Positions 22,898 through 38,133 of a stretch of 38,133 nt of DNA are shown here, piece by piece. Source of the DNA: Lachnospiraceae bacterium. Its GTDB lineage: Bacteria; Bacillota; Clostridia; Lachnospirales; Lachnospiraceae. Under the pieces are notes generated by a model. The model searched no databases. It worked only from the letters and a program-made list of their open reading frames with translations, and was not told the origin of the DNA. The stretch spans positions 1 to 38,133 of the forward strand of contig JAAWLQ010000003.1 in assembly GCA_022797995.1 (NCBI GenBank), written 5' to 3'. Made by a program: the position numbers and the translations under genes. Position 1 is the first letter of the stretch, and each line of letters begins with the position of its first letter.

Positions 22898-23104
22898 GTT
22901 GGGTTCCTCCTGGTTTTAAAATATATTAAAAATTTACTATCCTGTTTACAGTATTACAGTTTTAAAAACAGACTTCATTCGGTTAGAATTCCAAAATAAT
23001 AATACTACATTCTTAATAACTTTTGAACACCCAAATAACAGTTCAAGAACCTATCTATACTATTATCTCTCACTTTAACAGGTATACGTTTAATATTTAT
23101 TGCC
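22898..23104. other. AT-rich intergenic region
   Basis: About 200 bases between divergent bcp and the unknown membrane-protein gene. It marks the start of a lower-GC stretch that runs to about 26300. No gene or repeat was recognised. Confidence 0.4.
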
Positions 23105-23133
23105 TTGACAATTGTACAACACTATAGTATGCT
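23105..23133 (+). promoter_or_regulatory. Promoter of the unknown membrane-protein gene
   Basis: TTGACA (23105-23110), 17 bases, TATGCT (23128-23133). Transcription should begin near 23140, only ~15 bases before the first possible start codon (TTG at 23155), leaving little space for a ribosome-binding site. Confidence 0.65.
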
Positions 23134-23154
23134 AATATACATAAAAGACGAATA

Positions 23155-24753
23155 TTGTCGAAAGTGTTATATTCAATAATTCTAGCATTTAATTGCGTTT
23201 CTGCGATTTTCCATTGGAATAAATTTAAGTTTAGGCTAAAAGGAGGCAGAAACGCCACCGTTTTAGACATAAAATCTGACTTGATTGGGGGGATATATTT
23301 GGATGAAATAAGACTTAAAATTTCTAATCCGATTAATATGACATATAAAAAGATTCTGTTGCGTAAATTTTTTTATATGGTTTTTATAAGTGCTGATGGG
23401 AAAAAACTGGATGTGTACATAGCAACTGTGTTTGGAGGAATTACGCAGGATATTACAGAGCTGGATAAGATATATTCATCTGTTCAGCATGATCCCCAGG
23501 ACGCCTGCTCTTTGGAGTTTGCATTTTTTACTCCTGAAAACGATGGTAAGCTAATAGAAAAAGTATCGTTTACCAATTTGACAGATTCGTTTTGCCAGCA
23601 ACCTCAATGGATAGGTAAGGTTTGGGGGGCTTGTGAATCCTATACCGATCAAAAGAGCATTGCTGAATTATTGAAAAAGACATATCCTTCTCTGTATCCA
23701 AGCGGAAAAGGAGAAGCAAATATTGATATGAATGCATCTCCTAAAATCTATTATATAAAGAAGGGAGACAAGCCATCCCATATTTGTATAGCAGATAAGG
23801 GAAGATATGAGGATGTTTCAGAACCGTCTCGACACAGATACGCATATAAGCTGTATAATCAGAATAAAGGTAAGAAGATAGATGGACTTGAAATAATGAA
23901 TTGGATCAAAGCAGACATTACTCTTTCATCCAATATTTTAAAAGAACCTGTGCTCTTTTCTGTCGAACTTGAGCAGGGCAAAATAATTACACCTGATTTT
24001 ACGTGGTATTTTGCACCCCCGGCGGGTTATGTCGTAAGTGAAAATTCCTCTGTAAGGATTGGGGAAAAAGGCATGGCAAAAGAAGAAAAGAATGCCATAC
24101 AGGGGGTTATGGATGAAACAACTGTTTTGTTTAGCGAATGGGACAAATCTCCCTTGTCAATTAAGGAACGTAAAAAATCGCGGGTATTATTTAAGGCGGC
24201 TCCTGTCAAAGATATTGATAATTTATCCGAAGACACTGTCCTTGCAGTTGCACTATATATGACAAGTCCTCAGGAACCAACAAACCGGCAGTTTTGGATC
24301 GGTCTAATTATTGCATTCCTTCTGTCGTTTTGCTCTGACAAAACAAGGATTAATGATTATTATTCATGTTTGAAACTAAGTTGTACTTGTGTTGAAAATG
24401 CCTGTTTTTGTGAATATGTATGTAACGCTTTAAGTATCCTTTCGCCAATTTTATTGTTATGTACATTTTTTACTTTTATCATGTCCCCCCAAAAGTGTTT
24501 TCCGCCAGATGCTCCAAAATGGACCGTGTGCTTTAAAGTATGTCGTATCTGTGGTTTTGTTTTTACAGCCTTACTTATGGTATATGTATTTGGTTTATGG
24601 TTTCTTGTTCCAGTCTGGCTGATAAGTTTTATAAGCTGCCGTCTCAATATCTGGATCCTTGGATTGTTGTTTTTTCTTGCGGCTATAGCAAATATTGTCT
24701 ACCTCATTTATTGTCTGGGTAAGTTGAAACGTAAAATATTTAATTGTCTGTAA
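23155..24753 (+). CDS. Unrecognised membrane protein
   Basis: A 532-residue protein with no family recognised. A possible N-terminal helix (VLYSIILAFNCVSAIFHW) is followed by a ~370-residue soluble region rich in beta-type patterns, and then three or four helices (FWIGLIIAFLLSFC; LSILSPILLLCTFFTFIM; VFTALLMVYVFGLWFLVPVWLISF; IWILGLLFFLAAIANIVYLIYC) before a basic tail. Cysteines cluster between the helices (LKLSCTCVENACFCEYVC). The start is uncertain: TTG at 23155 has no ribosome-binding site, while TTG at 23299 follows GGGGGG but would remove the first helix. Base composition is clearly lower in GC than the flanks, suggesting transfer. It may be the sensor or transport partner of the next genes; that is only proximity. 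Confidence 0.65.
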   Translation: MSKVLYSIILAFNCVSAIFHWNKFKFRLKGGRNATVLDIKSDLIGGIYLDEIRLKISNPINMTYKKILLRKFFYMVFISADGKKLDVYIATVFGGITQDITELDKIYSSVQHDPQDACSLEFAFFTPENDGKLIEKVSFTNLTDSFCQQPQWIGKVWGACESYTDQKSIAELLKKTYPSLYPSGKGEANIDMNASPKIYYIKKGDKPSHICIADKGRYEDVSEPSRHRYAYKLYNQNKGKKIDGLEIMNWIKADITLSSNILKEPVLFSVELEQGKIITPDFTWYFAPPAGYVVSENSSVRIGEKGMAKEEKNAIQGVMDETTVLFSEWDKSPLSIKERKKSRVLFKAAPVKDIDNLSEDTVLAVALYMTSPQEPTNRQFWIGLIIAFLLSFCSDKTRINDYYSCLKLSCTCVENACFCEYVCNALSILSPILLLCTFFTFIMSPQKCFPPDAPKWTVCFKVCRICGFVFTALLMVYVFGLWFLVPVWLISFISCRLNIWILGLLFFLAAIANIVYLIYCLGKLKRKIFNCL

Positions 24754-24815
24754 ATTTACAGAAGGATCCTACTGACTATATGAATCAAATTATGAAAATT
24801 CAACTATTGTAGAAA

Positions 24816-24844
24816 TTGAAAATATCCTAATAGTGTGGTATTAT
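24816..24844 (+). promoter_or_regulatory. Promoter of the PP-loop/TudS-like operon
   Basis: TTGAAA (24816-24821), 17 bases, TATTAT (24839-24844). A TGTCCG/CGGACA stem-loop (24915-24932) lies in the leader, just before the favoured ATG. Confidence 0.65.
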
Positions 24845-24946
24845 TGCTGTATGATGAATAAGATGCTGAAAGGATACCATTAAATGGGAATGCTTCATTC
24901 TAATATCAATTTGATGTCCGTTGAAATCGGACAGAGAGGGGTGGAA

Positions 24947-25714
24947 ATGGTTAATATAGAAGAAAACTCTCAAAAAGATAAAAGAGTATTGTTAATGCTC
25001 TCTGGAGGCAGAGATTCCTTTTTATCAGCTTGTTGTCTGATTGAAGAGGGTTATCAAGTATATATGGTCACTTATGATAACGGATGTATATCTGATATAG
25101 GCAGCACCAAAGCAGTAGCAGAAAGAATTATCAGAAAATATGGTACTTCCAAGGCTGTATTTGTCGGTGTACAGAGTATAGCAGCTAATTTGTATCGCCT
25201 TCAGGAACCATATCTTTATCAGACTATCAGTGAAAGCAGTGGAAAATATCCTAACTTACGTCCCGCACAGCTGCCTTGTCTGGCTTGTCATACGAGTATG
25301 TATCTGGAAGCTATCGCTTTTTGCAAAGTACACGGCATCCATTATCTTGCAGAAGGCGCACGGAAGGCACAGAAATTTTTTGTAGAGCTTCCAGAGATGG
25401 TAAAACGGTATCGAGAGCTTACAGAACAAAATGGAATCAAACTTGTCCTGCCAGTGTATAATCTCATAAATGATTGGGAACGCAAGCTTCAGCTGGCAGA
25501 CCGTGGATATATCCCCAAAACAAAAGAGCCCCAGTGTTGGATAGGATGTCCATTGCAGAAAGAGCTAATACCCGAAGAAATAGAAAGTCTGGCGACTTAT
25601 TATGATAATGAGATAAAGCCTGAACTACAGCTGCTTATTGATGAAAAGATGAAAATCTATTCTTATGAAGAATTAGATAGCAATATATCTGGAGAAAAGT
25701 ACATTGAGTTTTAA
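24947..25714 (+). CDS. PP-loop (adenine nucleotide alpha-hydrolase-like) ATPase with cysteine pairs
   Basis: ATG at 24947 follows GAGAGGGG closely and gives 255 residues; the track start at 24884 is possible but has a poorer site. The N-type ATP pyrophosphatase loop is LLMLSGGRDSFLSACCL (SGGxDS). Two cysteine pairs, LPCLACHTSMY (~130) and QCWIGCPL (~220), could hold iron-sulphur or zinc, as in TtcA/TtuA thiolases or QueC. Such enzymes adenylate a carbonyl or base and then swap in sulphur or nitrogen. The gene overlaps the TudS-like desulfidase gene by 11 bases, so a shared sulphur-base chemistry on a nucleotide or tRNA is likely. GC is low relative to neighbours. Confidence 0.8.
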   Translation: MVNIEENSQKDKRVLLMLSGGRDSFLSACCLIEEGYQVYMVTYDNGCISDIGSTKAVAERIIRKYGTSKAVFVGVQSIAANLYRLQEPYLYQTISESSGKYPNLRPAQLPCLACHTSMYLEAIAFCKVHGIHYLAEGARKAQKFFVELPEMVKRYRELTEQNGIKLVLPVYNLINDWERKLQLADRGYIPKTKEPQCWIGCPLQKELIPEEIESLATYYDNEIKPELQLLIDEKMKIYSYEELDSNISGEKYIEF

Positions 25715-26267
25715 TGCGCAATATGCAGTCCTACTTCCTCCCTGTATCCTGTCTCCTGGCATACAGGCAAAGAGGAAACCTGGGAAACATTGGGGATATC
25801 CATTTATGGAATTACTCATGCGGTATAGTGTAAATACGGTTTTTTTGCCGTGTCCGGAGTCTTCTTTTGGAGGTTTTGAACGGGGGTTACAGCGTGGGAA
25901 ACATGGAATTGATTATTATAGGCAGTTAAGCGGGTATAAAAACCATTGTCTGTGCCTGGCAAAGGAAACAGCAAGAATGGTTTTGGATATACAGGCAGGT
26001 GGTTTCTGCTTTATCTGCATATTAGGAATCGAACATTCGCCAACCTGTGCTGTCAGTTATATGTATTCTCATAAAGGAATGTTAAAATGTGCAGGAATGT
26101 TTTATGAAGCTTTACAGAAGGAATTAGAGATAATCGGAATAAAAATCCCATGGATAGGCATTAATCGAACATACCCTCAAAAGTCTTTGAAGGAGTTGGA
26201 AAAACAACTGCTTAGCAGAACTGATAAATATCTACCTCAGAAATGTCAAAGTCATATACTACAATAA
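25704..26267 (+). CDS. TudS-like (DUF523-related) putative desulfidase
   Basis: A 187-residue protein starting at TTG, with GGAG 9 bases upstream inside the end of the PP-loop gene; the overlap shows coupling. Three cysteines sit where TudS-type desulfidases bind a [4Fe-4S] cluster: PPCILSPG near the N-terminus, FLPCPESSFGG (~50) and GIEHSPTCAVSYMY (~115). TudS removes sulphur from 2-thiouracil, and related fused forms act on 4-thiouridine in tRNA. The N-terminal ILNTASK-like segment is altered here (ILSPGIQAKRK). Function on free thio-bases or tRNA is inferred, not shown. AT-rich like its partner. DUF523 proteins of other function are the main alternative. Confidence 0.72.
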   Translation: MSFNAQYAVLLPPCILSPGIQAKRKPGKHWGYPFMELLMRYSVNTVFLPCPESSFGGFERGLQRGKHGIDYYRQLSGYKNHCLCLAKETARMVLDIQAGGFCFICILGIEHSPTCAVSYMYSHKGMLKCAGMFYEALQKELEIIGIKIPWIGINRTYPQKSLKELEKQLLSRTDKYLPQKCQSHILQ

Positions 26268-26306
26268 GAAATTTAATAGGCTTTAAATAAGTATATTGGG
26301 TAATAA

Positions 26307-26334
26307 CGCTCAGCTACATGAATGCAGCTGAGCG
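26307..26334 (+). terminator. Stem-loop between convergent TudS-like and recQ genes
   Basis: CGCTCAGCT pairs perfectly with AGCTGAGCG around a 10-base loop. There is no proper T-run on either side, so terminator strength is uncertain, but the place between convergent genes fits. Confidence 0.5.
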
Positions 26335-26362
26335 CTATTGCCACCAAAGATAAGGGAATAAA

Positions 26363-28909
26363 TCACTCAATCAACCCGTGCCGTTTCAGCCTCGCCCGGA
26401 TGCCGCCCGATGTCCTGCTGTGCCGCCTGGCAATCTCTGGTATCTTCATTCCGGACTCATACTCCTGATCCAGCCTGGCGTCTTCCTCCTCGCTCCAGGC
26501 CGCCCCTGCTCCGTCCGGCCGGTTCTTTGATCGATTATATTCCGCCCTGTCAAAAACCTTCGCTTCTTCCTTCTCTGCAGACTCTACGGAACTATCGCCG
26601 CTCTCCTCTTCTGCCCTGGGTCCCACCAGATGCTCAACAATCATCTTCTGCACCTTCGGCGGATACTTCATCAGCTTATATGGGACGCCGCTGGAGCTCA
26701 CCTTTTCTTCAAGCAGGATTCCATATTCCAGGCCCTGTGTGGTAGGTTTCTTGACAAATACGCCGCCGGTGCCATCTTCACAGGTCAGTCCCTGGGATAC
26801 CAGATATTCCCATATCTGTCCCAATGTTGCCTTTTTCACGCCGGTTACCGTACAGATACGGTTGAGTTCATTTTTAATCTCACTGATATAGTACATATCC
26901 TGATACTGAAATTCCTCCGCATCCTTTTCCGCAAGATAAAATGCAGACCTTTTTTTCTTCTTTGTTCTGGAAGTTTTTGAACCTGATGTTCCTGCCGCGT
27001 TCAGCTTTCCATCTTCATCCTCGTTCCCACTTCCGCCATTCCCCATCTGGCTGTCCTGACTCTGCATGCTGATAACAGCGCCCGGATGGGCTTCCACAAA
27101 TGCCGCTATGGCATTCAGGAATCTGTCCCCATATTTCTCACTCTTGCTTTTACCCACACCGGACACCGTCAGTAAATCATCTACCGTTTCAGGTAATTTT
27201 ATGCACATATCAATCAAGGTCTTATCATTAAAAATGATATATGGCGGCAGTCCTTCCTCCCGTGCCATCTCAAGCCGAAGCTTACGCAATTCCTCGAACA
27301 GGTCATACCCCGCTGCCGTCAACGCATCCGTGCTTCTCTTTCGGGAAGCCCTCCTCCTATCCGGCTCTTTTTCTTCATAAATGCGCATGATCACACGGGT
27401 ATTCTCATCTCTTAACCGCGAGATGTCCCCCATTTTCAGTACGCTGTACTGCTCTTCTGTCTGGTACAGATACCCTTCTTCAATCAGCTGGCTGATCAGA
27501 CTCCTCAGCAAAGTTTCATTCCTGTCTTTTAACACCCCGTATGACCTGTAATTCACAGTGCCCAGTTCCCGGAGTCTTGCCCGGTCGGCTCCCATCAGCG
27601 TTCCCAGGACGATGGTCAAGCCATACCTCCCCTTTGTCTCCGCCACACAGTTGATAATCTGCTTCGCCTCGGCAGTCATATCCACTTCCCTGTATTCCCT
27701 GTGACAATTCCCACAGTTATCGCAGGGATTGCTGGTTTTTTCGCCGAAATAATTCAGAATCGTATTCCGCAGACATCCAGTGGTTCTGCAGTAACCTTCC
27801 ATTATCTGGAGCCGCCGCATATCCCTCTGCTTTACCAGCTCCACATCCTCTGTGTCCAGGTCGGAGAAATCCTTCTTCTCCAGCAGGAATTTATTGATGA
27901 TGATATCCTGGGCTGAGAAAAGCAGAATACACTGGGCCGGTTCTCCGTCTCTGCCGGCACGTCCTGCCTCCTGATAGTAATTCTCCATACTTTGGGGCAT
28001 ATTGTAATGAATCACATATCTCACATTGGATTTGTCTATGCCCATGCCAAAGGCATTGGTCGCCACCATAACCGGCGCCCGGTCGTATATGAAATCCTCC
28101 TGATTCTTCTTCCTGGTATCATTGTCAAGTCCCGCATGATACCTTGTTACCGGCACACCCTTTTTACACAGTACTTCAAAAAGGTTGTCCACATTTTTCC
28201 TGGTGGCACAGTAAATAATCCCGCTTTCCCGGGGGTGTTTTTCTATGTAATCTGTGACAAAATCCTCTTTCCTGCGTATATTTTCCACACTGTAATACAG
28301 ATTTTCCCTGTCAAAGCCTGTCACTGTCACACTGGGGTTTACAAGCCGCAGCGTGCACAGAATGTCTTCTTTTACCTCTTCTGTGGCTGTGGCCGTAAAT
28401 GCGCTGACAATGGGTCTCTGGGGAAGATTATTTATGAAATCCACGATTTTCAGATAGCTGGGCCTGAAATCCTGACCCCACTGAGAAATGCAATGAGCCT
28501 CGTCCACGGTTATCATGGAAATATCTGCACGGTTGGCAAATTCTGTAAAACCATAGCTCTCTAAACGCTCCGGCGCCACATAGATAATTCTGTATGCACC
28601 TGCCGCCGCCAGGCTCAACGCCTTTCCAATCTGGGTCTCCGTGAGGGAAGAGTTGATAAACGCCGCGTGAATTCCTGCCTCGTTCAGAGCCTTCACCTGG
28701 TCCTGCATCAGGGATATCAGCGGCGATATCACCAAAGTGATGCCGGGCAGCATCAGCGCCGGAACCTGATAGCATATAGATTTACCCGCCCCTGTGGGCA
28801 TAATTGCGAGGCTGTCACGGCCCGCCATGATTGCTTCGATGATACTTTCCTGTCCCGGCCGGAAGGAATCGTATCCAAAAAAGGTCTTCAGAGTTTCTCT
28901 TGCGGTCAT
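26363..28909 (-). CDS. recQ: ATP-dependent DNA helicase RecQ with extended C-terminus
   Basis: An 848-residue RecQ helicase, longer than the ~600 of E. coli RecQ. Domains in order: helicase lobe 1 with FRPGQESIIEAI (motif 0), MPTGAGKS (Walker A) and DEAH; lobe 2 with ATNAFGMGIDKSNV and QEAGRAGRDG; the four-cysteine zinc site (CRTTGCLRNTILNYFG, then CDNCGNC) at ~375-400; RQC winged helix to ~510; HRDC at ~530-600 (LPPYIIFNDKTLIDM; LLTVSGVGKSKSEKYG); a charged linker; and a C-terminal winged-helix/RQC-like module with a Myb-like end (AWSEEEDARLDQEYESGMKI). It unwinds DNA 3'-5' in recombinational repair. AAGGGG lies before the ATG. It is followed by no close partner gene. Confidence 0.96.
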   Translation of the reverse strand: MTARETLKTFFGYDSFRPGQESIIEAIMAGRDSLAIMPTGAGKSICYQVPALMLPGITLVISPLISLMQDQVKALNEAGIHAAFINSSLTETQIGKALSLAAAGAYRIIYVAPERLESYGFTEFANRADISMITVDEAHCISQWGQDFRPSYLKIVDFINNLPQRPIVSAFTATATEEVKEDILCTLRLVNPSVTVTGFDRENLYYSVENIRRKEDFVTDYIEKHPRESGIIYCATRKNVDNLFEVLCKKGVPVTRYHAGLDNDTRKKNQEDFIYDRAPVMVATNAFGMGIDKSNVRYVIHYNMPQSMENYYQEAGRAGRDGEPAQCILLFSAQDIIINKFLLEKKDFSDLDTEDVELVKQRDMRRLQIMEGYCRTTGCLRNTILNYFGEKTSNPCDNCGNCHREYREVDMTAEAKQIINCVAETKGRYGLTIVLGTLMGADRARLRELGTVNYRSYGVLKDRNETLLRSLISQLIEEGYLYQTEEQYSVLKMGDISRLRDENTRVIMRIYEEKEPDRRRASRKRSTDALTAAGYDLFEELRKLRLEMAREEGLPPYIIFNDKTLIDMCIKLPETVDDLLTVSGVGKSKSEKYGDRFLNAIAAFVEAHPGAVISMQSQDSQMGNGGSGNEDEDGKLNAAGTSGSKTSRTKKKKRSAFYLAEKDAEEFQYQDMYYISEIKNELNRICTVTGVKKATLGQIWEYLVSQGLTCEDGTGGVFVKKPTTQGLEYGILLEEKVSSSGVPYKLMKYPPKVQKMIVEHLVGPRAEEESGDSSVESAEKEEAKVFDRAEYNRSKNRPDGAGAAWSEEEDARLDQEYESGMKIPEIARRHSRTSGGIRARLKRHGLIE

Positions 28910-33866: not shown

Positions 33867-36569
33867 TCAGCCCTCATGTTCCATCTCCTCTCCGGCCTGG
33901 ATGGCGCTCTGTAACTGTCGGTATATTTGCGCCGGTCTCCTGGTAAACTCGGTGAGATTTTTCCGCTCCACAATCTTCCCATCCTTCAGCGCCAGAATCT
34001 CTCCGTCCGTAAATACAAACCGGCAGTCCCCTGCCACAAATCCCACTGTCTCATCTTCCGCAATTTCAGCCGCTTTCGCGCTGCGTTTCAGTTCCATATA
34101 GAATCTGTATTCCGCTTCACTTCTGATGCGCAGCTCCGGCACCCATTCACTGTGCTCCAGCAGAAACAGATTCGTAAAATCCACCACAAAGCCGGACTCC
34201 TTCGGGCGAATGGGCCTCTTCGGTTCATTGACTTTCGTAATATCTTCCCATTTACGAACTGTAATTTTATAATATGGATCGCCGCCATTTTTCCTGAACA
34301 CAGGCATCTCTTTGATATCGGCCCGTTTCACAAGCTCGACTCTGATGGCCTCGCCGTAAAATCGGATCTGCCCATTTCCCTCTCCAAACATATTGTTGGT
34401 CTGGTACAAAGCCACATAGTGAATGGGAAGCTTATCCTCGCTCACCCGCTTCGCAGGTACATAATAGAAATTCTTATCATAACAAACCTGAAATTGTTCC
34501 TTCGACCGAAATGTACCGATCAACACATCTCTCTTATCCCAGTCCACCGTTGCCAGCTTTTCTTCTATACCCCGGGGCAGAGAGGTTCTCTCGAAAGCGG
34601 ATTCTCCGGAATCACTGATCAACTCACTCAACAACTTTTGAACCAGCTTTGTCGCACCCGGCAGAAACGGAAGTCCGCCAATATTAACCGTATCTATACT
34701 TTTATAGAAACGATGCTTTCTGTATTCCTCCTCATATCTGCCATCCAAAGGGAACAAAACATAGGCACCGAACATGGTCTTCTCAAAAGTAAATCTGGAC
34801 TGAGGATTCTCATAGACAATGGAATCCCTGTATCGATGCATGGTATTGATATCATCCACCTTCGGACCCTGTTTCGTATCCGGATAGAAATTGCTCTCCG
34901 GGTTGGTCTCTATCCGATACTTTGCGTCAAATACATACTTATAAGAAACCTCCGTACCCTTCTTCTCCAGCTCCAGCACATTATCCGGCTTCTGGTTTAC
35001 AGTCTGCGTTTTGTTCTCTGCCGGATTATAGACCAGCTTAATCACTTCCCCTGTGGCAGGATTAATAAATCTGGCCGTGGACCTTGTCCCTTTTACCAAT
35101 GTGACCGTAATACCGCTATTATCCACCCTGATAATGTCCGGTGAAAGCAGACGATACTCCTTTTTCAACAAACTGAACAATTTGATGAAGCACCAGTACT
35201 CGTACAACTGCGCCGTGTCCTTCGGAGACATTTTAAACACATCCCCGTTTACGGATAAACTTCTCTGCAGCATAAGCCAGTATTTATACAATTCCCTGTA
35301 TCCGGGCGCCATGCCGAATACCAGCGACATACTCCGGGCTGTGGAATATTCCGACACTTCCCGGAGAAATGTGGTATTCAACACTCGCTTTACATCTCTG
35401 ATCATTTCCCCCGCGTCAGCCAGTACTTTTTCTTCCGTCCGGGCCCCGCTTCTGCCATATCTCTTAACAAACTCTTCCAGCTTCCTTATGGTCGATGTCA
35501 GAATAAACTTAACGAATTGATTCTCTAAAGTATCATATGTCACCCTCTTTTTTACAGCCAGAACCTTTTCTGCGTTTATCTCTCCACGGGAAATGTCAAG
35601 ATAGCCCTGATGCTTCCTGAGCCACTTTTCCGAAGTCCTGTCTAATTTTTTCGCCTTGTGCGCCGGAACAACCGTATGCTCCGTGACCCGCTTATGATAG
35701 GGTGCGGAGAGAATCCTGTTTACCGCATTCATATAATCATTAAAAATGGCAGATAGAATCCGGAAATAGACAGCCGACATTGTATTATGCTTTTTCCCCA
35801 GGGAAAACATCTGATACGTTTTCTGCATAAAGTCAATGATTGCTTCGCAGGCCATCTCCGAAATGTCATTTATCATCATTTGATAGTCTTCTTTGTAGGA
35901 AATCTTTGTGGGGAAGACTTCTATTCTTATGGTTACATGCTTTCTGTCATCCAGATATACCTCAAAATCCGAGTAACCAACCGTGTTGTCAAAGTTAATC
36001 ACACCTGACAACAGGGTTTCATCACCGTCGATGACCGATCCCACTTTTTCTCTGATTCGATAATTCTCATTCCAAAAGGAGACTCTGCTGCCGTTCACGC
36101 TTTTTATGATAAGCTCATAATCTGTCTGTTCGAAAAACAGGGGCGGGACGGCAATCTCATGGTGGCTGTATTCTGCCTGGGCAGATTCCGTTCTGGCAGA
36201 TTGTATTCCATCATAATCACTTCTGCCATCGGCCTTTCCGGTAACTTTCGCTCCATCGTAATCGCTTCCGCTATTCTCCTCTCCGACAGATTCCGCGCCA
36301 TCGTGCTCAACTTTGGCAGATACAATTCCGGTAGATATAATTCCATCGTAACCAGTTCTTCCAGATTCAATTCCAGCAGTTCCGACGAATCCCGTATAAG
36401 CTTCAGCCGCTGGAATGTAGATTCTCTGCAAATGATATCCGGCAACGATAACCGAAGAAGATTGCTCCAGATTTACTCCCGGCCGAGCCTTCTTTGCCTT
36501 GATTACAATATTTACTTCTGACGTATGTATCTCCAATACCTTATCAGAGCCAGTAGGAAGTAAAGCCAT
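33867..36569 (-). CDS. McrC-like DUF2357 protein with PD-(D/E)XK nuclease domain
   Basis: A 900-residue protein. Residues ~1-65 are an N-terminal piece; ~70-145 a repetitive hydrophilic linker of 15-residue units ((Y/H)DG(A/I)); ~150-470 the DUF2357 region (YLDISRGEINAEKVLAVKKR; ENQFVKFILTSTIRKLEEFV; EYSTARSMSLVFGMAPGYREL); and ~510-620 a PD-(D/E)XK nuclease with QKPDNVLEL and VFDAKYRIE as catalytic halves. The remainder is a C-terminal domain. It overlaps the McrB-like gene by 26 bases and forms its nuclease partner. Together they should cut modified or foreign DNA (type IV restriction). The ATG follows GAGGAG at a longer spacing; a later start is possible. Confidence 0.85.
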   Translation of the reverse strand: MALLPTGSDKVLEIHTSEVNIVIKAKKARPGVNLEQSSSVIVAGYHLQRIYIPAAEAYTGFVGTAGIESGRTGYDGIISTGIVSAKVEHDGAESVGEENSGSDYDGAKVTGKADGRSDYDGIQSARTESAQAEYSHHEIAVPPLFFEQTDYELIIKSVNGSRVSFWNENYRIREKVGSVIDGDETLLSGVINFDNTVGYSDFEVYLDDRKHVTIRIEVFPTKISYKEDYQMMINDISEMACEAIIDFMQKTYQMFSLGKKHNTMSAVYFRILSAIFNDYMNAVNRILSAPYHKRVTEHTVVPAHKAKKLDRTSEKWLRKHQGYLDISRGEINAEKVLAVKKRVTYDTLENQFVKFILTSTIRKLEEFVKRYGRSGARTEEKVLADAGEMIRDVKRVLNTTFLREVSEYSTARSMSLVFGMAPGYRELYKYWLMLQRSLSVNGDVFKMSPKDTAQLYEYWCFIKLFSLLKKEYRLLSPDIIRVDNSGITVTLVKGTRSTARFINPATGEVIKLVYNPAENKTQTVNQKPDNVLELEKKGTEVSYKYVFDAKYRIETNPESNFYPDTKQGPKVDDINTMHRYRDSIVYENPQSRFTFEKTMFGAYVLFPLDGRYEEEYRKHRFYKSIDTVNIGGLPFLPGATKLVQKLLSELISDSGESAFERTSLPRGIEEKLATVDWDKRDVLIGTFRSKEQFQVCYDKNFYYVPAKRVSEDKLPIHYVALYQTNNMFGEGNGQIRFYGEAIRVELVKRADIKEMPVFRKNGGDPYYKITVRKWEDITKVNEPKRPIRPKESGFVVDFTNLFLLEHSEWVPELRIRSEAEYRFYMELKRSAKAAEIAEDETVGFVAGDCRFVFTDGEILALKDGKIVERKNLTEFTRRPAQIYRQLQSAIQAGEEMEHEG
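36208..36387 (-). repeat. Four 45-bp tandem repeats in the DUF2357 gene
   Basis: CCATC-rich units (xYCCATCGTAATC) begin at 36208, 36253, 36298 and 36343, exactly 45 bases apart, with a degenerate fifth unit around 36389. Each codes for a 15-residue unit starting (Y/H)DG(A/I) and ending near Ser-Asp or Ala-Glu. The copies have diverged more than those in the NifX-type gene. Confidence 0.85.
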
Positions 36570-38133
36570 CCTCTTCGTATCTCCTCATCATATAACAGAT
36601 CTTCCTTGCAGAATTCCTGTATACACAATCATTTCCTTGCATATAGGCTTCCATCTGCTTCCAGATCATATCCTGGTTCAAGCCGCTGTAATCTCCGGCA
36701 AACTTCTGGAATAATCCGCACAGCAGATCTTTCACCGCTATGCTGCTTCCCTGAATCCGGGGCAAAATCTTCTGCATGATCTCGTTATCCAGCGCATCGT
36801 TGTATTCCAGCAGATCAGCCTCGGCATTATTCAGCATATAGAATACAATCTCATCCCTGACACGATATCCCATGTGTGCGTTTACTTTTTGGAGAATATC
36901 ATTGATAGCCTGCAATTCTCCGCATACCCTGATGGCCAGGTCCTGCTGCTCTTTTTTGATATCCGTTTTTAACACGATGTATTTTGCTTTCAAAAAACTG
37001 TTCTTTCGAGGCACAGGTTCCGCTCTTTCTTCTATGGAATCCTCTTCCAAATCCGGTCCTATATCAGATTCCGCACCGAATTCCAGCTCCAGATTCACAT
37101 CGGAAAACTCGATGGTATTGGCTCTGTCCAGAACCTTCCTGCTGAACGGGAAAGTGGTCTCGTCCATATTTACCGTTCCAATGACATATAAATTCTCCGG
37201 AAGAATCAACCTCCCATACTCCTTCTCCGCAGCTTTATCCAGGATAATCTGGTCTGTCACAATCCTGTCTCCAATCCATCTTCTGGTTTCAATCACTGAC
37301 AGAAAATCACTGAGATAATACTCCACCCTTGCCAGATTCATCTCATCCAGACACAGAAAATACGGCCTCTCCGGGTGTTCCCCAGCCTCTTTTACGAAAT
37401 CAATAATTGCTCCCGGGACAAATTCACCCTTCAAGTTCGTATGTCCAAACAGATCGGATGAATCGGACCAATCCGGTCGCACCGATACCAGCCTGTAACG
37501 CCCGTTGCCACCGCTTTCTGACGATGTGGCTCCAATGGCCTCTGCAAACAGTTTCACAAGCCGCGTTTTGCCTGTCCCGGAAATTCCGGCCAGAATGACA
37601 AAAGGCTTCGATTTCAGACTGAGATAGAAGTTCTCGATCAGGCTACCGTTATATGTAAACCCTTTTGATTCTATGTATTTTTTTATCCTTGAAATTATTT
37701 CCCTTGTATCCAATGGTTCTTCCTCTTCCTGGGACTCGGCGCCAGGCTCAATATCCAGTCCGTCAGTCAGGTCCATATCTGCTGAGGGGTCTGCCTGCAG
37801 GTCCGGGTTGTTGTCAGAGTCAGTGTCAGGTCCAGCTTCCGGTTCTTCGTCTGGTGCAGCTTTGGCATTCATGTCCGATTGGTTATCGGATTTATTTTCC
37901 GGTTCCTTCGCCATTTTCTCTGTATACTCACGATAAATGTCCATCATCCGGGACAAATCAGCTTGAAGCTCTGCCTCCTCCGGCACATTTCCTTTCGTGT
38001 ATTTCTTATAAAAGATGGTACCCTTCTGATACAGTTCCACCGGCTCTTTCGAACTATCCCCCAAGTTAATCTCTTCTTCATCTGTTGCAAAGCCTCTACT
38101 GTCTATACAAGATATAATTTTCTTTGCTTCTTC
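36544..38133 (-). CDS. McrB-like AAA+ GTPase/ATPase (5' end outside window)
   Basis: The frame is open to the window edge; the TTG at 38064 in the track is internal, so the N-terminus is missing. After an N-terminal region and a long acidic low-complexity linker (DEEPEAGPDTDSDNNPD and flanks) comes the McrB-type AAA+ domain: GISGTGKTRLVK (Walker A), YFLCLDEMNLARVEYY (Walker B), and the family signature GTVNMDETTFPFSRKVLDRA. The C-terminal ~120 residues are helical. McrB motors use GTP to move DNA towards the McrC nuclease; the partner here is the overlapping DUF2357 gene. Nucleotide preference (GTP or ATP) cannot be told without more of the protein. The DNA-recognition domain lies beyond the window. 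Confidence 0.9.
   Translation of the reverse strand, partial: EEAKKIISCIDSRGFATDEEEINLGDSSKEPVELYQKGTIFYKKYTKGNVPEEAELQADLSRMMDIYREYTEKMAKEPENKSDNQSDMNAKAAPDEEPEAGPDTDSDNNPDLQADPSADMDLTDGLDIEPGAESQEEEEPLDTREIISRIKKYIESKGFTYNGSLIENFYLSLKSKPFVILAGISGTGKTRLVKLFAEAIGATSSESGGNGRYRLVSVRPDWSDSSDLFGHTNLKGEFVPGAIIDFVKEAGEHPERPYFLCLDEMNLARVEYYLSDFLSVIETRRWIGDRIVTDQIILDKAAEKEYGRLILPENLYVIGTVNMDETTFPFSRKVLDRANTIEFSDVNLELEFGAESDIGPDLEEDSIEERAEPVPRKNSFLKAKYIVLKTDIKKEQQDLAIRVCGELQAINDILQKVNAHMGYRVRDEIVFYMLNNAEADLLEYNDALDNEIMQKILPRIQGSSIAVKDLLCGLFQKFAGDYSGLNQDMIWKQMEAYMQGNDCVYRNSARKICYMMRRYEEDGFTSYWL

Follow-up and report, generated by a model that had tools for sequence, protein, structure and literature searches.

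The window examined here, 38,133 nucleotides of a Lachnospiraceae bacterium (contig JAAWLQ010000003.1), encodes a PP-loop ATPase (open reading frame 1, ORF1) overlapped by a TudS-like desulfidase (ORF2), and relatives of the two are kept side by side in bacteria and archaea. Both proteins are putative iron-sulfur enzymes, with clusters predicted from sequence. We propose, at a probability of about 0.5, that they form a couple that makes, transfers, or erases a thio-modification on one common substrate, a free nucleotide or nucleobase. The substrate and chemistry of this proposal are what we infer; the pairing, residues, folds, and SUF-mnmA gene context on which it builds were observed directly. 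The elements of the pair are as follows.

24816-24844, forward strand: promoter-like site TTGAAA-17-TATTAT with TG before the -10, 5' of ORF1, 10/12 consensus match
24884-25714, forward strand: ORF1, ATG start, 276 amino acids; PP-loop ATPase, predicted YcfA/TgsB fold, CxxC (C132, C135) plus C218
25691-25694, forward strand: GGAG, likely ribosome-binding site of ORF2 as read from the bases, inside ORF1 and 9 bases 5' of the TTG
25704-26267, forward strand: ORF2, TTG start, 187 amino acids; TudS-like desulfidase with C14, C50, C115, E52, S112, and T114 at TudS catalytic positions

The two ORFs had been reported in a first-pass annotation of this DNA, and both are present at the places it gave, with the TTG start of ORF2 overlapping the 3' end of ORF1 by 11 bases as described there. 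Its placement of the pair behind one promoter fared less well: the 10/12 site exists, yet a consensus scan of the region found 15 promoter-like sites versus 13.9 +/- 4.2 in shuffled sequence, which is not above chance.

The two genes are consistently paired

The first search, with ORF1 as a single protein against 391 genomes of the class, returned two strong relatives (G415 and G454), each followed directly by a relative of ORF2; single-sequence scans of the genome and viral collections gave no matches. A profile built from three PP-loop proteins (that of the window and the two class relatives) was required to reach wider relatives, and it recovered 28 in named genomes (L044-L071) of Clostridia, Bacilli, other Bacillota bins, Patescibacteria, and archaea. 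The last two profile matches (L072 and L073) represent different PP-loop proteins and are not counted among the 28. The PP-loop gene precedes an ORF2-type gene on the same strand in an intact or near-intact arrangement at 27 of these loci, mostly with overlaps of 1 or 4 bases. The twenty-eighth, L067, was considered as a locus lacking the partner and rejected as such: its TudS-like gene persists as a remnant with an internal deletion.

The association also holds when approached from the TudS side. Across the 391 class genomes, matches to the PP-loop profile and strong TudS-like matches (>200 bits) coincide in exactly 3, while the next-best TudS relatives (<100 bits) are without a PP-loop partner and most adjoin an energy-coupling factor (ECF)-like membrane gene or ATP-binding cassette (ABC) transporter genes. 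Chance as the source of the pairing is excluded by the 28/28 named loci and by the identity of the 3/391 genomes found with either profile. The earlier annotation had offered its idea for refutation should the genes not be paired elsewhere, and the comparison leaves it standing. No close ORF1 relative was found in the phage and plasmid collections, and the plasmid matches of one paired relative were TgsB only. No description of this gene pair was found in the literature searched, most subscription journals and preprints being outside that coverage, and its novelty is relative to that literature.

Conserved residues and predicted folds

The PP-loop motif of ORF1 reads SGGRDSF. In an alignment of ORF1 relatives, all 27 sequences share C132, C135, and C218, together with the likewise invariant SGGxD, G158, Q163, and P190. 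Two cysteine pairs had been claimed for ORF1; the first, C132xxC135, stands, whereas the second does not, because C222 (of CWIGC) was found only among the window's closest relatives, and the conserved set is therefore CxxC...C. ORF1 matched the MnmA, ThiI, QueC, and DUF7411 families of Pfam and NCBIfam, all below cutoff. Its assignment as QueC, MnmA, ThiI, or QatC was rejected, with scores below or far below the cutoffs.

The confident AlphaFold2 model of ORF1 (predicted local distance difference test, pLDDT, 85.9) retrieved from the PDB, as its best 20 matches, exclusively Erwinia amylovora YcfA chains, with expectation values (E) of 1e-13 to 3e-12 and a template modelling (TM) score of about 0.83 over a target of about 218 residues; apo, ATP-bound, and GTP-bound entries were among them. 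MnmA and TtuA ranked after YcfA, at E of about 1e-7. As modeled, the ORF1 fold is nearest to that of YcfA, a PP-loop enzyme of 6-thioguanine synthesis, and not to those of the tRNA thiolases. The length of ORF1 is also about that of YcfA, and its relatives are of about 235 amino acids. Pfam detected no RNA-binding domain in ORF1. In an alignment with MnmA, the CxxC of ORF1 falls on the catalytic PCxxC.

The three-cysteine TudS pattern noted earlier in ORF2 was confirmed, with C14, C50, and C115 in C-x-E and S-P-[ST]-C contexts. Together with E52, S112, P113, and C82, these cysteines are invariant across 25 ORF2 relatives. The catalytic residues of TudS_A are Cys10, Cys43, Cys104, Glu45, Ser101, and Ser103 (PMC10611767). 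Since C14/C50/C115, E52, and S112 of ORF2 correspond to Cys10/43/104, Glu45, and Ser101, with Thr replacing the last Ser, ORF2 retains the full catalytic set in this modified form. Its AlphaFold2 model, also confident (pLDDT 88.9), had TudS structures 6z96 (probability 1.00) and 6z93 (0.97) as its top PDB matches, at modest TM scores of 0.5-0.6. By family profile, ORF2 scored 55 bits versus a cutoff of 130 (E 7e-15) against NCBIfam NF045597 (CD3072 family TudS-related putative desulfidase) and 12.3 versus 34.7 bits, under the gathering score, against Pfam PF04463 (2-thiouracil desulfurase). Neither ORF1 nor ORF2 is a clean member of any named family. We considered Cys82 as a pair-specific residue and possible persulfide acceptor and dropped this idea, as a wider alignment shows Cys82 in most CD3072-type proteins. 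The earlier view of a sulfur-adding enzyme joined to a sulfur-removing one is borne out at the level of folds, a nucleotide-thiolation fold (YcfA) adjoining a thiouracil-desulfidase fold (TudS).

Gene contexts of the pair elsewhere point to sulfur, iron-sulfur, nucleotide, or RNA chemistry. In L058, the pair lies in the order sufC-sufB-(sufD)-sufS-sufU-PP-loop-TudS-like-mnmA, with sufC, sufB, sufS, sufU, and mnmA confirmed by NCBIfam; L054 and L056 have the same arrangement by homology. The pair is preceded by queH in L015/L062/L063 and neighbored by rlmD in L068 and L071 and by RNase Y in L059. In two Patescibacteria (L050:8058-9874 and L057:7995-9763), a canonical TudS gene (PF04463) follows the pair in an apparent three-gene sulfur operon.

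A proposed thio-nucleotide couple

Translational coupling and obligate pairing suggest that ORF1 and ORF2 act as one unit. Judging from its fold and motif, ORF1 would bind ATP through SGGxDS and, like YcfA acting on a guanine nucleotide, adenylate a carbonyl oxygen of its substrate. A [4Fe-4S] cluster on CxxC...C may then offer HS- to the activated carbon, giving C=S, after the pattern of TtuA and most LarE proteins. The conserved TudS residues and fold suggest that ORF2 would bind the thio-nucleotide at a three-Cys [4Fe-4S] cluster, where Glu52 and Ser112 would hydrolyze C=S to C=O and the released sulfide would be kept as [4Fe-5S]. ORF2 may pass this sulfide to ORF1, filling the slot of the pyridoxal phosphate (PLP) sulfur donor of ycf/tgs operons. 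Alternatively, ORF2 may erase or proofread the product of ORF1. A free nucleotide is the substrate that we favor, at about even odds: YcfA, the nearest fold, has been seen with GTP bound, ORF1 has no RNA-binding domain by Pfam, and TudS prefers 4-thio-UMP to tRNA (PMC10611767).

Several points weigh against this proposal. The likeness of ORF1 to YcfA is one of fold, at about 20% identity, and the cysteine sets differ; TudS is a weaker fold match for ORF2 (E 7e-3). Strict anaerobes may make do with free sulfide, so the need for a dedicated sulfide donor is not evident. The mnmA, queH, and rlmD neighbors would fit tRNA or rRNA as the substrate just as well, and one PP-loop gene of the paired type (L119:4431-5129, in IMGVR_UViG_3300006204_000121) has no TudS-like partner. 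The contig of that gene is phage-like and integrative, carrying an integrase and a tail lysozyme.

The foremost alternative, which we regard as rather unlikely, is a pair acting on tRNA (or rRNA), in which ORF1 thiolates an RNA base and ORF2 strips the sulfur or supplies sulfide. RNA modification neighbors in several lineages (mnmA in L058 and, by homology, L054 and L056; queH; rlmD) and the alignment of the ORF1 CxxC with the MnmA catalytic motif argue for it, and RudS, a TudS domain fused to DUF1722 that erases tRNA s4U, shows that tRNA activity of TudS domains is possible (PMC11417400). ORF2 resembles RudS in its TudS catalytic core but lacks the tRNA-binding DUF1722 and has a separate PP-loop partner. 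Similarly, ORF1 shares the PP-loop and CxxC plus third Cys with the tRNA thiolases TtuA/Ncs6, TtcA, and MnmA but matches their folds less well and has no THUMP, zinc-ribbon, or MnmA-type extra domain; its size and predicted fold match those of YcfA, which acts on a guanine nucleotide. The patchy distribution, 3/391 class genomes, would also be unusual for a core tRNA modification.

Sulfur-adding and sulfur-removing enzymes retained next to each other in both bacteria and archaea imply a metabolism of thio-nucleotides for which the literature searched describes no pathway. Such a metabolism would connect the TudS desulfidases, understood only recently, with the enzymes of 6-thioguanine synthesis and with the SUF sulfur system, and an iron-sulfur route to thio-nucleotides may prove widespread.

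A mobile three-gene cassette in the window's clade

In the clade of the window, a membrane protein gene joins the pair to make a mobile three-gene cassette, which lies at a variable site. The additional features of the window are as follows.

23155-24753, forward strand: third cassette gene, encoding a protein of about 530 amino acids with a conserved domain and C-terminal membrane segments; exact start uncertain, homology from about residue 50
22919-26362, no strand assigned: inserted or exchanged segment with the whole cassette, 3,444 bases, 36% G+C, between prx and recQ

The third gene was overlooked in the first-pass annotation, whose interpretation as a whole is partly supported: its reading of a linked PP-loop/TudS-type pair that was recently gained stands, with this gene missing from it. 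C-terminal hydropathy peaks, which predict membrane segments, occur in most members of the third-gene family. The window copy had no Pfam match above cutoff and no NCBIfam, PADLOC, or PHROG match, and its L049 relative had a marginal PADLOC match to GajA (E 5e-4). In the window the gene lies directly upstream of the pair, but in L044-L049 it comes directly after the TudS-like gene. Its seven carriers, the window and L044-L049, form one clade (98/97 support); no other paired locus has it, nor does any of the remaining 390 class genomes.

Recent gain had been suspected from low G+C, and both are upheld. The G+C fraction is 0.363 over the inserted segment versus 0.47 on either flank. The ORF1 gene was found in none of 60 congeners, where the lone weak match (E 1e-3) is an MnmA-sized PP-loop protein, and synteny is broken at the site in the sister species. 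Nucleotide similarity to this closest congener, G189, ends at 22918 and restarts at 26363 (the RecQ stop). At the prx-recQ site of G189 lies instead a gene for a 208-amino-acid protein (L123, G189 C28:1513-2139) matching the PADLOC candidate defense model PDC-M04B (E 3e-65); the site comparison rests on this one case, because only G189 among the congeners keeps prx-recQ synteny.

Elsewhere, the Butyricicoccus cassette has phage tail genes on one side and transposases and a type I DNA methylase on the other. In L049 (6914-8744), the second gene upstream of the cassette is dCTP deaminase-like, and in L044 (10970-11560) a thymidylate kinase gene directly follows the cassette; both are genes of pyrimidine nucleotides. 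About 10 kb downstream of the cassette in the window (33867-38064, reverse strand), an AAA protein with an MrcB-like N terminus matches PDC-M26A (1.4e-51) and adjoins a DUF2357/PD-(D/E)XK protein that weakly matches PDC-M26B; these genes are a probable McrBC-like system.

These settings make a defense role in the window's clade plausible. As a full account of the three genes, anti-phage defense would have ORF1 make a thio-nucleotide signal or antimetabolite, ORF2 clear it as long as the cell is uninfected, and the third, membrane-bound protein sense it or carry out the response. We consider this account unlikely, although it is compatible with the proposed thio-nucleotide couple. The restriction of the third gene to 7/7 members of one clade is consistent with it, as are the PDC-M04B candidate at the same site of the sister species, the PDC-M26A-like candidate within the window, the surroundings of the Butyricicoccus copy, and the thymidylate kinase or dCTP deaminase gene near two copies. 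However, most lineages have the pair without the third gene and in housekeeping operons, PADLOC matches do not rise above chance for any cassette member (the three proteins of the window have none at all), and location is indirect evidence, with a single sister-site comparison. A more specific version, that the window-type cassette is a new phage defense derived from a widespread housekeeping couple, with a thio-nucleotide made on infection and erased otherwise and a clade-specific membrane protein as sensor or effector, appears distinctly unlikely. If the three-gene form were a defense, the signals or poisons of phage defense would gain a new chemical class, the sulfur-bearing nucleotides.

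Relation to 6-thioguanine operons and other TudS families

YcfA and its Staphylococcus chromogenes counterpart TgsB share with ORF1 a compact PP-loop fold, SGG/TGGxDS, and the Q163 and E168 motifs but lack the three cysteines; ORF1 has CxxC...C and a TudS-like partner. In a phylogenetic tree, TgsB types (99/99) are sister to the TudS-paired PP-loops (86/93) as separate clades, with MnmA and QueC outside on long outgroup branches. C132, C135, and C218 are present in each of the 23 paired PP-loops of the tree; at these positions TgsB and its relatives on plasmids carry L, D/E, and S, respectively. YcfA works with YcfC (PMC6225789), and ORF1 has the TudS-like protein instead. The neighbors of TgsB are TgsA, a PLP cysteine-desulfurase homologue able to provide sulfur, two NUDIX genes, a HAD gene, and efflux genes; the tgsA-F operon is on a plasmid of S. 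chromogenes strain 1401 (PMC7994395). No operon with a PLP sulfur donor, NUDIX, phosphatase, or exporter was found in the window neighborhood and 30 related loci. The observed swap of partners suggests that products of one kind may be reached by either of two chemistries, with a PLP donor or with an iron-sulfur cluster. CxxC plus a third Cys, as in the iron-sulfur PP-loop thiolases (TtuA/TtcA/LarE-like), recurs in 27/27 ORF1-type sequences, and these three cysteines may hold one [4Fe-4S] cluster.

The YcfA fold would also suit an antimetabolite with self-immunity, in which ORF1, in the manner of ycf/tgs clusters, makes a thiopurine-like compound against which ORF2 protects the producer, and the same bacterial family has a tgsB-type PP-loop beside NUDIX (L002, L003) and HAD (L003) genes. 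This is very unlikely, however, as the set of NUDIX, phosphatase, and exporter is not seen beside the window cassette, the third gene has no similarity to a known transporter, and the pairs of Patescibacteria and archaea are without such genes. LarE-like cofactor chemistry, with ORF1 acting on a non-nucleotide carboxylate or amide and ORF2 recycling the spent thio-compound, is highly doubtful. In its favor, a CxxC-C motif occurs in the majority of LarE homologues (PMC8584467), and CD3072-type TudS relatives, given the importer genes beside them, may have substrates other than nucleotides, but the best fold match of ORF1 is YcfA rather than LarE, and no nickel-cofactor genes were seen nearby.

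Among the TudS-type families, ORF2 shares with TudS proper (DUF523, PF04463; a 4-thio-UMP desulfidase) the three-Cys cluster site, C-x-E, S-P-S/T-C, Glu, Ser, and fold and differs in its sub-cutoff score, an additional invariant Cys82, and the obligate PP-loop partner. The CD3072 family (NF045597) is its nearest named family and has the extra Cys in most sampled members; ORF2 falls under the family cutoff, and the sampled CD3072 types have no PP-loop neighbor. Eleven of these (L078, L079, L081, L084, L085, L086, L088, L089, L090, L093, and L095) adjoin a membrane protein of about 185 amino acids (..AIGIAINIVLG..LLFLDTxGTIF..), likely an ECF S component, and six (L080, L082, L083, L087, L092, and L094) adjoin ABC transporter or solute-binding genes. 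These neighborhoods suggest import and desulfuration of some thio-compound.

Two loci of the window's family (L002:1081-2175 and L003:1498-3423) have a TgsB-like PP-loop with CxxC...C adjoining a NUDIX gene, and a HAD gene as well in L003; these are possible thiopurine gene clusters without a PLP donor. On the Alicyclobacillus acidoterrestris plasmid pDSM3922.1 (L098:4983-7693), genes for a TgsB-like PP-loop protein, NUDIX, a DMT transporter, and HAD stand in a row that looks like a 6-thioguanine-type operon outside staphylococci.
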